Positions 14,768-30,525 of a stretch of 30,525 bases of DNA are shown in pieces. The notes under the pieces were generated by a model, which saw only the letters and a list, made by a program, of their open reading frames with translations, searched no databases and was not told the DNA's origin. The stretch is from a virus, in IMG/VR virus record IMGVR_UViG_3300043775_000330, positions 1-30,525 of that record; one strand, given 5' to 3'. The number at the start of each line of letters is the position of its first letter. The stretch's first letter is position 1. Position numbers and translations under genes: made by a program.

Positions 14768-14866
14768 CTATCCAATTACTCCAATGTACATCAATATACC
14801 TACAACTGTCAAAAGTGCCACAGAAACGATAAAAATGTCCTGTATTGCTTTAATATCTTCATTCAT
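14768..14866 (-). CDS. 32-residue single-span membrane protein
   Basis: ATG 14866-14864 lies 2 nt after the stop of the zinc-protein gene; TAG 14770-14768 precedes the next ATG by 1 nt. The first 10 residues are acidic and polar (MNEDIKAIQD), followed by one long hydrophobic helix (IFIVSVALLTVVGILMYIGV). It resembles the other tiny membrane protein at 12982-13077 in layout: short acidic head then a single helix. Unknown function; perfect fit between stop and start codons supports it. Confidence 0.7.
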   Translation of the reverse strand: MNEDIKAIQDIFIVSVALLTVVGILMYIGVIG

Positions 14867-15346: not shown

Positions 15347-15405
15347 AAAAAAACCTGCTAAGTGTGGGCGACCAGGGACTCCCCAATCCTTTAACCATAG
15401 CAGGT
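15347..15405 (-). terminator. Structured terminator of the late operon, bidirectional-looking
   Basis: An 8-bp stem ACCTGCTA / TAGCAGGT (15405-15398 and 15360-15353 on the transcript) is followed by seven U (15353-15347). The 37-nt interior folds further: GGATT and AGTCC (one G-U) close a GGGG tetraloop. On the plus strand a seven-T run (15412-15418) also follows the stem, so it could stop transcription both ways. It lies about 94 nt after the last late gene. The interior is unusually long and GC-rich for a terminator loop. Confidence 0.7.
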
Positions 15406-15498
15406 GTATTCTTTTTTTATAGTTCACCTATTCAGCTTGTGAGTAGAGGAACTTATTTGAGTGATCCGGTAACTGTTCTAATGGTAAGTATCCAGATA

Positions 15499-15786
15499 CT
15501 ATTTCCCTACCTTGAAACGTTTAAGAATGAACTTAACTACTCTCTTTGCTATGACTTTCCAAAGACCGCCTTTAGAGTCAACTTTCACCTCCACTCCTTC
15601 GGCAGTCTTGGAAATTTCAATATCTATATTTTTACCATCTAATTTAAACTCCTTATTAACCTCATCTTTGATGTATGAGATGTCAAGGTTTTTAGTGTCA
15701 ACATCCAGCTTGATGTTGGTTCCATCCTTTTCAAGGTTGATGTCTACATTATCAGTGTCAATTTTGACTGTTTTTTTCTTTGCCAT
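15499..15786 (-). CDS. Lysis-cassette protein with cationic amphipathic C-terminus
   Basis: A 95-residue protein from ATG 15786, 7 nt after the endolysin stop; an extension to 15831 would overlap the endolysin gene. The first 70 residues alternate polar and hydrophobic residues with repeated D-x-K-N-x-D-I/L-x patterns (for example NVDINLEKDG and NIDIEISKTAEG), suggesting a beta-repeat domain. Residues 73-95 are GGLWKVIAKRVVKF then ILKRFKVGK: nine Lys/Arg from 72 on, no acidic residue, one Trp, amphipathic as a helix. This resembles cationic antimicrobial peptides. As the last gene of the lysis group it may disrupt the outer membrane, like the phage disruptins. No signal peptide is seen. Other possibilities: nucleic-acid binding, or a structural protein. 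Confidence 0.6.
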   Translation of the reverse strand: MAKKKTVKIDTDNVDINLEKDGTNIKLDVDTKNLDISYIKDEVNKEFKLDGKNIDIEISKTAEGVEVKVDSKGGLWKVIAKRVVKFILKRFKVGK

Positions 15787-15793
15787 AACTATT

Positions 15794-16168
15794 TTATTTT
15801 GCCCATCTTGCTTTAACGTTCCTGTGGTCATAATGCACCCACGTGGAATAAGTACCTAATCCACCCTCTTCCATCTTACCGGCTGCAATAAGTTTCTCAA
15901 TCACAGCTGCCACCTCTTTTGGTGTCATGCCTGCTATCTTAAAATCTGCCGCCTCACCTGTAATATGACGTGAGGATTTTACCCCTTTAACCTTAGCATT
16001 AAAATCAGCTGTTCTGTACCCACTTGTTATTTTGATTGGTTTCTTTACCTCATCTCTCAACACTTGTAAATTCTTAGCAAGTGCAAAGATGTTTTGAAAT
16101 ACTGTATCTGAGATCACAAATCCATGCTTGTTAAACTCAGACAGGGTGAAATTATTTGTCAGTTTCAT
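15794..16168 (-). CDS. Endolysin: M15 family peptidase
   Basis: A 124-residue peptidoglycan peptidase of the M15 (D-Ala-D-Ala carboxypeptidase / L-Ala-D-Glu endopeptidase) type. Zinc ligands are visible: His68 and Asp75 in SSRHITGEAADF and His112 in TWVHYD, with Glu101 or a neighbour in the EEGGLG stretch as possible base. The ITSGYR motif (47-52) is the usual substrate-pocket strand. The single-domain size is normal for phages of Gram-negative hosts. It follows the holin-like gene after 2 nt, and no signal peptide is present, so it needs a holin for release. Confidence 0.9.
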   Translation of the reverse strand: MKLTNNFTLSEFNKHGFVISDTVFQNIFALAKNLQVLRDEVKKPIKITSGYRTADFNAKVKGVKSSRHITGEAADFKIAGMTPKEVAAVIEKLIAAGKMEEGGLGTYSTWVHYDHRNVKARWAK

Positions 16169-16170
16169 AC

Positions 16171-16422
16171 TTATTTTTTCGCTAAGATACGTTTTTTTGT
16201 TTCAACTATTGCTGTTGTATCTGCTTTTAATAATGGAGCTTGCGGCTGTTTCTCTTCAATAGGCTTTCTGTTATAATACTCATTCTTATCTAAACAGTTG
16301 TATAAACGGTCTTTAACATCCTGCACCTCAAAATGTGTGTAAGCAAGCCATAATGCTAAAACTCCAATGGCTCCTTGCTTTTTTATCACTTCAATAAATT
16401 GTGTTATAGGTATCATTTTCAT
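16171..16422 (-). CDS. Putative holin (single-span)
   Basis: An 83-residue protein with one hydrophobic segment (GAIGVLALWLAYTHF, about 17-31), followed by VQDVKDRLYNCLDKNEYY and a basic tail ending in several Lys. The order helix, then an acidic-basic coiled segment, recalls BhlA/UviB-like single-span holins. It stands directly before the endolysin gene, the usual holin position, and overlaps the 78-aa gene by 4 nt. The call rests on position and topology, not on strong sequence identity. Confidence 0.65.
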   Translation of the reverse strand: MKMIPITQFIEVIKKQGAIGVLALWLAYTHFEVQDVKDRLYNCLDKNEYYNRKPIEEKQPQAPLLKADTTAIVETKKRILAKK

Positions 16423-16666: not shown

Positions 16667-17281
16667 TTAAGATAAAGTTGTTCCTGTTACTGTAAAAACA
16701 CGAACCGCAAAATAAGTATTTCTTTGAAGTGTTTTACTATAATTTAAAACGGGGTTTGTTGAATTGCTTAAAACAATAACCGAACTTCCTGTATCATTGT
16801 TATTTGTTGTTGAAGTCCAATGGCTTAATGTAGCTATTGAAAAGGGAGAATAATTAAGATTTGCACTAATACCCCAATTCATTAAATTCATTAACTCATT
16901 AATATTTGGTAATCTCCAACCACTTGTAAAAGTGCTTATTGACAAAGCCAATCCCCAATCTATTGCTTGTGCCCACGTTTGTAAAAGCGGAGTAGATAAT
17001 TGATAGTACCCTAAAACATTTGTTCCGTTGTAAGTGCTCCAATCTATTCTAATTCTATTTGTGTATGTCGTACCGCCTAACTCATCAGTAAATCTATTGG
17101 TGTTACCAAATGGATTATTACTTGCTAACACTGTGAATGATGTTGCTCGACCTGCCTCAAGATCACCATCATCACCAGTTCTGTATGATGTTGTTTGTCC
17201 TGTTTTCATTAAGGTCTGACCAACAGGAGCAGGGGTGGACGAACCACCACCACCGATCTTGAAGTTCAATGCACTTATCAT
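16667..17281 (-). CDS. DUF1566-like C-type-lectin-fold protein (putative receptor-binding or adhesin)
   Basis: A 204-residue protein. After a Gly/Ser-rich N-terminus (IGGGGSSTPAP) it has the DUF1566 pattern: TSGWRLPNINELMNLMNWG (about 119-137), then SHWTSTTNNND and a final YFAVRVF strand. DUF1566 domains adopt a formylglycine-enzyme/C-type-lectin-like fold used for carbohydrate or protein binding. The gene is the last large tail-region gene before lysis, where receptor-binding proteins often lie, and couples to its upstream neighbour through ATGA. Receptor binding is inferred. No reverse transcriptase or template repeat for diversity generation is found. Confidence 0.7.
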   Translation of the reverse strand: MISALNFKIGGGGSSTPAPVGQTLMKTGQTTSYRTGDDGDLEAGRATSFTVLASNNPFGNTNRFTDELGGTTYTNRIRIDWSTYNGTNVLGYYQLSTPLLQTWAQAIDWGLALSISTFTSGWRLPNINELMNLMNWGISANLNYSPFSIATLSHWTSTTNNNDTGSSVIVLSNSTNPVLNYSKTLQRNTYFAVRVFTVTGTTLS

Positions 17282-17627: not shown

Positions 17628-18764
17628 TTAGTAGTAGGTTCTTTTGTTCTTAAATTTATCTGCAACCACACATTTTAAAGATGCTTTACGTGCAAAGTCA
17701 TAGTATGTTAATTCTGGACTTTGGCTCACAATTACAGGCAGGTCATTGATGCAATAATCATGGTTGTGAGCATTGTAATCTGATATGTAAAGATTATTCT
17801 CACTTAATAGATACAAATCAACAAGTGGTTGTGTTACGCATTTCAAAGATGGATCAACAAGTATTTCATACTCATTCAAGTTCTCTCGAATTACTCTCCT
17901 CATCTCTCGATTATTGTAAATGATATTATCTATCTCAGTGTTTGGTTGCCTGTTACCAATGAATCCATTGAATCTGTAAGTACTTTCAACACCACTACCA
18001 GAGAAATCAATCTGTTGTATCTCATGATATCCATCAAAGTTTGCTCTCAATCTGGCTGTTGCAATTGCATTCTGTATTGTGAATGGCAATAGTCTATATT
18101 TACCCCATGAGAATATGGCTTGAATGCCTGAGATATCATAATCAACCTTTAACTCATAGCATCCAATTCCATCTGATACCAGAACATCATTCCAATCTAT
18201 TGTAGTGTAGTAAGCATTAGCCTCATTAGGGAATGGAATTACTGATGGAATGTAAGTTGTTAACACACCATCTTTATATAACTTGAATGCAACATAATCT
18301 GCAGGATCACTGAGCTTTATCCATGCACTTGTCTTATCAGTCTCCCATGAGTTTGATGTGGACTTAGCCAGAACCAACTCCTCACAACAACACTCCTCAA
18401 ATCCTCTATCCTGTGGAGGGCAAATCTGAGGCAGCTTGATAGACTTATAATCAAAATACATTCGATCCTCATTCTTAGCACATTCACACTCAGTTGTTGC
18501 AGTTGTAACAGCAAATGAAAGCCATTGAGTAGTATTACCTAATGGACATGGATCACTTGTTTTTAAGCTGTCAACATAAGTTCCACCCCCAATAAGATCT
18601 GTAATATACCACGTATCAGAACCATCAAACCAGATATAATAAGTTGATCCAAAGTAAGTGAACTCAAATACATTGAATCCATTATACGTGCCGGATGCAT
18701 CAACCTCAAATTGTAGCGTTGAATAAGTACCAGATTGAAACGAAATATTAATGCAATCACACAT
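17628..18764 (-). CDS. Cys-rich tail or baseplate protein
   Basis: A 378-residue, mostly beta protein that starts MCDCINISF and contains many cysteines, including a dense CECAKNE / FEECCCEE region (about 90-130). An FGSTYYIWFDGSDTWYI strand pair lies near 34-52. I recognise no family. Its place among large late genes between tail hub and receptor-binding candidate implies a virion tail component. Cysteine clustering could reflect metal binding or disulfides in the mature particle. It overlaps the 727-aa gene by 8 nt. Confidence 0.7.
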   Translation of the reverse strand: MCDCINISFQSGTYSTLQFEVDASGTYNGFNVFEFTYFGSTYYIWFDGSDTWYITDLIGGGTYVDSLKTSDPCPLGNTTQWLSFAVTTATTECECAKNEDRMYFDYKSIKLPQICPPQDRGFEECCCEELVLAKSTSNSWETDKTSAWIKLSDPADYVAFKLYKDGVLTTYIPSVIPFPNEANAYYTTIDWNDVLVSDGIGCYELKVDYDISGIQAIFSWGKYRLLPFTIQNAIATARLRANFDGYHEIQQIDFSGSGVESTYRFNGFIGNRQPNTEIDNIIYNNREMRRVIRENLNEYEILVDPSLKCVTQPLVDLYLLSENNLYISDYNAHNHDYCINDLPVIVSQSPELTYYDFARKASLKCVVADKFKNKRTYY

Positions 18765-29538: not shown

Positions 29539-30525
29539 TTAGTCGTTGATTAGAGCTATATCAGTTGCGATATCTGATTGAACAAACGCATCAACATCAT
29601 TACCTTTGATGTAAGCTACCAAACGAGCCTCACATAAGATAGTAACCATGTTACGAGTAAAGTCATCATTCTCATATCCTACTGACATATTCATGTCCTC
29701 TCTGAACTTGATGTTGAATTTAGTGAAGTCACCAACTACCAAAGTACCTGCAGTGATATTGTTTGAAGATACAATCATTAAACCAGCCAACATCATGTTT
29801 GCATCCCAAAATGCAGGATAAGTGTACTCTCCAGATGATGTCTTAGTCAATTCGATTTTAGCAACATCCTCTGGGTTCAATAGAACGTGAGTAGGCTCAA
29901 AGTTAGCAGCTTGAATCTGAGCTTTTGCAATTCTAATTAAATCAGAAATGTTTGCCCCTGGGATAGTACCTGCAAATGTACCTGCTGAAAAGTTAGGTGC
30001 AGCTGATAATAAACCATTTAAGTCAACACCACCTGCTCCATTTATTAATGAGTTGTCAATAGTTTGCTCAATAGCTTCCATCAATTCAGTGTTGATTTCA
30101 GATCTAACGAATGATAAGTCAGCCAACATCTCTTTTGAAACTTTGATGTAAGCAGCAACTTTTTTCACTTCCTCAGAAACCTCCTCATATTTAACCTCTC
30201 CATTGAATTTAGCACCTGCCTCATTCACCCACAAAGTACCTTCACCTGTTGGAGCAACTTGTTTTGTTTGTTGGATGTAAGTAACGAATTTAGATGTAGT
30301 TGTTCCTACGTTAGAGATCTCACGTATTCTACGAATAGGACGTGCAATTCTGTTTACTCCTGGCTCTAATACACTCAATGCAACGTTACCAGAGTAATCT
30401 CCATCAATTGTAGTGTCAGTCTTAACATCTAATGTAATTCTGTTACCTTTCTCGATTGAGTCAGTGATCGCCTTAACATTGTCAGAATAAGTTTTTACTA
30501 ATGCCTCTTTCAAAGTCTTAGCTCC
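29539..30525 (-). CDS. Major capsid protein (HK97 fold), main part; N-terminus is at 1-355
   Basis: The frame runs in from base 355 through the window start and ends at TAA/TAG-side 29539, for 404 residues in total. Capsid-fold features: SVLEPGVNRIARPIRRIREISN (an N-arm, given in part), WVNEAGAKFNGEVKYEEVS (E-loop-like), VAAYIKVSKEMLADLSF and INTELMEAIEQTIDNSLINGAG (P-domain spine helix), then THVLLNPEDVAKIEL and NMVTILCEARLVAYI (A-domain). This is the normal pattern for HK97-like capsids in which a delta domain is removed. T number cannot be deduced. The gene is cut only by the arbitrary opening of the circle. Confidence 0.95.
   Translation of the reverse strand, partial: GAKTLKEALVKTYSDNVKAITDSIEKGNRITLDVKTDTTIDGDYSGNVALSVLEPGVNRIARPIRRIREISNVGTTTSKFVTYIQQTKQVAPTGEGTLWVNEAGAKFNGEVKYEEVSEEVKKVAAYIKVSKEMLADLSFVRSEINTELMEAIEQTIDNSLINGAGGVDLNGLLSAAPNFSAGTFAGTIPGANISDLIRIAKAQIQAANFEPTHVLLNPEDVAKIELTKTSSGEYTYPAFWDANMMLAGLMIVSSNNITAGTLVVGDFTKFNIKFREDMNMSVGYENDDFTRNMVTILCEARLVAYIKGNDVDAFVQSDIATDIALIND
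30399..30525. repeat. Terminal direct repeat, right copy
   Basis: Exact copy of bases 1-127. It lies within the major capsid gene, and joining the two copies restores one uninterrupted frame of 405 codons including the stop. Confidence 0.95.

Follow-up and report, generated by a model that had tools for sequence, protein, structure and literature searches.

Spanins, both the Rz/Rz1 and the unimolecular type (PMC6139136), are missing from 13% of surveyed phages (PMC6139136, PMC12819732). How phages of Gram-negative hosts get through the outer membrane without spanins, and whether they encode disruptins, are both stated as open questions (PMC12819732). The lysis-cassette protein described here, hereafter F, resembles several known systems in part. 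Like spanins, it is encoded behind the endolysin in the cassette and is proposed to act at the same outer-membrane step, but it has no lipobox, TM segment or signal sequence. The PhiKT disruptin (Holt et al. 2022, via PMC12819732), as far as the account in that source goes, shares with F a small size, an association with lysis, a cationic amphipathic helix (predicted in F), the lack of a lipobox or TM anchor and a phage in which no spanin was detected. Compared by the same description, it is a short amphipathic-helix peptide, whereas F proteins are 80-95 aa long across the family and contain an acidic, beta-rich, duplicated domain. Antimicrobial peptides of the LL-37 type are similar to the last 24 residues of F in charge and amphipathicity, whereas the predicted helix of F is embedded in a conserved, folded-looking protein. 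The T4 antiholin RIII (PMC8385771, PMC9409239) is a small, soluble, lysis-associated protein of the cytoplasm, as F is predicted to be, and a coupling of F to the holin would fit this likeness. By description, F is set apart from RIII by its cationic C-terminal helix and its position in a holin-endolysin-F operon.

The window (the whole stretch of DNA analysed, 30,525 nt) carries a perfect 127-nt direct terminal repeat (positions 1-127 and 30399-30525) and was therefore taken as a complete genome of about 30.4 kb. The late operon, on the minus strand, runs from the tail genes through a putative holin (H1), an M15 endolysin and F to a hairpin followed by a T-run. H1 (16171-16422, 83 aa, with one hydrophobic segment, GAIGVLALWLAYTHF) gave no significant match in PHROG, Pfam or NCBIfam; it is considered a putative holin by its position, its hydrophobicity and its conservation upstream of the endolysin. 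The endolysin (15794-16168, 124 aa) is a Peptidase_M15_3 protein (Pfam PF08291, E = 1.6e-19; PHROG 894, endolysin, E = 1.5e-35). F, a subtype A member of its family, was confirmed as the gene behind the endolysin (15499-15786), where the sequence-only reading had placed it; it is a minus-strand ORF of 95 aa (MAKKKTVKIDTDNVDINLEKDGTNIKLDVDTKNLDISYIKDEVNKEFKLDGKNIDIEISKTAEGVEVKVDSKGGLWKVIAKRVVKFILKRFKVGK). Its start codon lies 7 nt past the endolysin stop (15794). A longer F ORF, reaching to 15831, was rejected: it overlaps the end of the endolysin, and the ATG at 15786 is the start kept in relatives. F fell outside both the hydrophobic-segment and the lipobox candidate sets. No significant family match was obtained for F against Pfam, PHROG, NCBIfam or PDB profiles (best E values for the window protein, all sub-threshold: PHROG, 0.0077; Pfam, 0.05; NCBIfam, 0.26; PDB profile, 0.04). 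One subtype B member reached E = 0.001 in Pfam, still below the cut-off.

Relatives of F were found in well over a hundred uncultured freshwater phages. The family was found only in uncultured IMG/VR phages, where three scans that overlap one another confirmed 68, 127 and 204 stretches, and searches of cultured phages and of GTDB genomes found none. After duplicate fetches were removed, F lay directly behind the endolysin, or behind a NUMOD4/HNH gene inserted after it, in all 132 distinct junctions (the inserted gene, between an M15 endolysin and F, accounting for 4 of these); F was also present in 43/43 loci with sequence beyond the endolysin when the search started from the M15 endolysin, and in 111/111 cassettes with room when it started from the two putative holins, the three counts not being independent samples because the searches overlap in the contigs returned. 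On genomic context, then, F is strongly supported as a lysis-cassette orphan, and the cassette membership first read from the window alone extends to the family. The homing-endonuclease gene (NUMOD4/HNH) sits exactly between the M15 endolysin and F in loci L113, L125, L126, L127 and L128, and in L013, L018, L020, L037 and L038.

Three types of endolysin were found adjacent to F: the M15 type of the window, a distant M15 type (about 28% identical) and an L,D-transpeptidase-like protein. Because F is kept with all three, its link is to the cassette rather than to any single enzyme. In about half of the cassettes, the M15 type is replaced by the L,D-transpeptidase-like protein, which has HGxTYN and SEGC motifs (examples at L066:2204-2752, L049:3457-3999 and L010:3279-3866). 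Its matches to YkuD (E = 0.013) and to an endolysin PHROG (E = 2e-4) are weak, so it is possibly an unannotated endolysin type. The constant position of F beside an endolysin, where the late region ends after the tail genes, together with its beta-rich domain and cationic helix, would also suit an envelope-targeting or virion-associated factor (for example, one that binds LPS or peptidoglycan and aids the endolysin or coats progeny) instead of a membrane disruptor. We regard this as very unlikely, given that F is retained when unrelated enzymes replace its partner endolysin and that no known binding domain was found in it.

Residues 72-95 of F (15502-15573, minus strand) make up a cationic amphipathic C-terminal segment, KGGLWKVIAKRVVKFILKRFKVGK, predicted by AF2 to be helical from residue 76 to 91 and conserved in homologues. 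The segment has nine K/R, no D/E and a Trp at position 76. The sequence-only reading had reported nine basic residues, no acidic residue and a Trp near the start of the tail, all of which stand, but the length is 24 residues instead of 23. The 43 predicted proteins gave 8,669 windows of 23 residues; at least eight basic residues without an acidic one occurred in just three, and these overlap and all belong to the F tail. After F, the most basic C-terminus encoded by the genome had a net charge of +5. When the residues of F were shuffled, the C-terminal 23-mer reached a net charge of at least 9 in 0.3% of cases, a cut slightly stricter than the +8 of the real 23-mer. Residue shuffling and the proteome window scan thus ruled out chance composition as the source of the tail.

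The tail was maintained across the full-length family members examined. Members of subtype A (68-99% identical to the window protein) start with MAKKK and end in WK.[IV]AKR[IV]VKF[IVL]L[KR][KR]FK; those of subtypes B and C, with about 40% identity to it, start with MAKKVGRPKK and end in FLKA[VIL]ATLASKF[IV]VKRFKK(K). Two loci, L304 and L305, encode an A-like F of 47% identity that ends in FWKMVGKRIAKWISKKFSKK, and the cationic amphipathic C-terminus of the L305 member reads WKMVGKRIAKWISKKFSKK. Full-length relatives, down to about 40% identity, had a C-terminal 21-mer with a net charge of about +6 to +8 and an amphipathic pattern. The median net charge of the C-terminal 21 residues was +8 in every subtype; a few subtype A values were lower, some of them perhaps from ORFs truncated where a contig stops. 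The hydrophobic moment was weaker in subtypes B and C (0.31-0.33 vs. 0.54), which also have no Trp. Homologues lacking the basic tail, which had been named in advance as grounds for abandoning the disruptin proposal, were absent among the full-length members examined. Body and tail alike showed dN/dS values of 0.02-0.2, indicating purifying selection throughout.

The remainder of the protein (residues 1-71; 15574-15786, minus strand) has a basic MAKKK start; the rest is acidic and beta-rich and contains an NxD[IV] beta-hairpin unit in duplicate, and the net charge of the body is about -3 in subtype A. This conserved acidic domain, built from the duplicated unit, represents three quarters of F. 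The duplication shows in residues 8-50 and 48-95, which are copies related to each other (hhalign score 22.3, E = 1.4e-4, vs. scores of at most 15.9 in 40 column-shuffled controls), which bears out the earlier description of F as repeat-rich. The AF2 model, built with 24 relatives, predicts a beta-beta-alpha arrangement twice (strands 14-19, 22-27, 54-60 and 65-71), with the tail as the second helix; confidence is modest (mean pLDDT 63, pTM 0.50), and a second run with a deeper alignment was worse (pLDDT 39). With this model of modest confidence as the query, the fold search of BFVD and PDB gave nothing at E ≤ 0.001. Since the tail would be the helix of a duplicated beta-beta-alpha unit, its packing into the fold is possible, and it could be a packed helix that is basic on one face rather than a free peptide acting on membranes. 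Set beside the definition of a disruptin as a short cationic amphipathic-helix peptide, the tail has a net charge of +8, no acidic residue and a predicted helix, and the protein as a whole is 95 aa long with an acidic beta-rich domain.

The basic N-terminus suggests a further reading, in which F is a nucleic-acid-binding or other cytoplasmic late protein that is merely the last gene of the late operon. The MAKKVGRPKK start of subtypes B and C resembles an AT-hook, and two weak, sub-threshold matches were seen, one with a KH-domain model from archaea (E = 0.0029) and one with an Lsr2-like PHROG (E = 0.34). However, subtype A lacks the GRPKK motif, no family match was significant, and the perfect association of F with the endolysin holds across three endolysin types and differing downstream genes. 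We therefore consider a nucleic-acid-binding role quite unlikely.

The host is likely a member of the Bacteroidota, judging from the rarity of SD-like leaders (2/40 genes), the A+T richness of the leaders (76%) and the closest cultured endolysins, which are those of Flavobacterium phages (54% identity). All frames of the complete genome were scanned for a lipobox with both strict and relaxed patterns, and no independent gene on the coding strand contained a candidate. The only strict match (18317-18472) was discarded as an alternative frame inside a tail gene. With no lipobox protein on the coding strand of the window, no spanin was detected. The earlier statement that no spanin-like gene is seen near F consequently holds genome-wide, and a true spanin pair elsewhere, which would have counted against the proposal, was looked for in the complete genome and not found. 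A coding-strand lipobox protein was likewise absent from 8 of the 10 relatives scanned, most of which are records with terminal repeats and others of which may be fragments. The other two relatives (G004 and G007) encode an 80-aa lipoprotein, MKK[VI]FI...LTSCKKECNCG..., which lacks a hydrophobic segment at its C-terminus; its gene lies outside the cassette, some 1.1-1.4 kb downstream of F. This small cysteine-rich lipoprotein, seen in two relatives at L220:6866-7108 and L224:13255-13503, may function as an o-spanin or in exclusion.

Our leading reading, which we hold tentatively and at somewhat less than an even chance, is that F is an accessory lysis protein that opens the outer membrane in phages without detectable spanins. 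It is drawn from the charge and amphipathicity of the tail, the lack of export signals and the missing spanin gene; a Gram-negative host and the outer membrane as the target are both what we infer. F would be made late from the holin-endolysin-F operon and would stay in the cytoplasm, because it has no signal peptide or TM segment. Once the holin opens the inner membrane, F would escape together with the endolysin, and after the peptidoglycan is cut, the cationic amphipathic C-terminal helix would insert into the anionic outer membrane. The acidic beta-rich domain perhaps delivers or masks the helix. Of the disruptin-type role first proposed for F, cassette membership, the kept tail and the absence of a detectable spanin speak in favor, whereas the acidic beta-rich body, the equal constraint on body and tail and the tracking of holin type speak against. 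Several observations weigh on the outer-membrane reading itself: unlike a free antimicrobial peptide, F consists mostly of an acidic domain under strong conservation; the tail may be packed into a fold; subtypes B and C have the weaker hydrophobic moment and no Trp; two relatives have the small lipoprotein outside the cassette; and the F subtype follows the holin type (140/141), a pattern not expected from outer-membrane disruption.

Ahead of the endolysin lies a gene for either H1, with one TM segment, or H2, with two hydrophobic segments. These are unrelated putative holins that alternate at the same position. H2 has a weak match to a holin PHROG (E = 0.0036), and no cultured-phage relatives of H1 or H2 were found. 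H1 occurred with subtype A in 73 cassettes and H2 with subtypes B and C in 67, the single discordant cassette of the 141 being cut by a contig end. Judged by well-supported branches, the endolysin switched holin/F background at least twice in each of the two endolysin trees, making four switches or more. Because the F subtype tracks the holin type, a holin-regulator role is a serious rival: F would be a cytoplasmic holin partner (an antiholin or co-holin), and its basic helix would attach to the holin or to the inner membrane and determine when lysis occurs. The lack of an export signal agrees with this role, for which T4 RIII, a cytoplasmic antiholin, is a precedent (PMC8385771), and the concordance persists despite the endolysin exchanges. 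However, L304 and L305 combine an H2-type holin with an A-like F, a second exception that is not cut, and F has no similarity to known antiholins. Within types, moreover, holin-F distances correlated better than endolysin-F distances in only 1 of 4 sets, so that cassette linkage can explain much of the holin-F pattern. Strict holin-F coupling is weakened by both the exception and the distance test. A functional link between holin and F is possible on these comparisons, and we consider the holin-partner role, the main rival, fairly unlikely.

Under the outer-membrane reading, a more specific proposal, which we think doubtful, is that in a whole clade of uncultured freshwater phages spanins gave way to a folded disruptor of the outer membrane, a protein of duplicated beta-beta-alpha design, the second helix of which is membrane-active. 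If true, such a folded disruptor would represent a structural class new among outer-membrane lysis proteins, one that was retained through free exchange of the endolysin. The F family is a concrete candidate for crossing the outer membrane, being present in every checkable cassette of the group independently of endolysin type. It offers two main subtypes and one complete spanin-less genome, and its proteins are small and directly testable in standard lysis-complementation assays.

On both sides of the lysis genes, further features were noted, all on the minus strand. Just upstream, a 204-aa protein (16667-17281) with a sub-threshold Lcl_C match (E = 3.9e-7) was present only in some subtype A phages. 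Downstream of the cassette, a 32-aa hydrophobic ORF, MNEDIKAIQDIFIVSVALLTVVGILMYIGVIG (14768-14866), was read by eye. Downstream of F, the conserved nested hairpin and T-run (15362-15412; CACCTGCTATGGTTAAAGGATTGGGGAGTCCC[CT]GGTCGCCCACACTTAGCAGGTTTTTTT) had no Rfam match and likely represent the terminator of the late/lysis operon (fold z = -2.3). The element was near-identical in phages with A, B and C cassettes, and this conserved terminator is possibly mobile.
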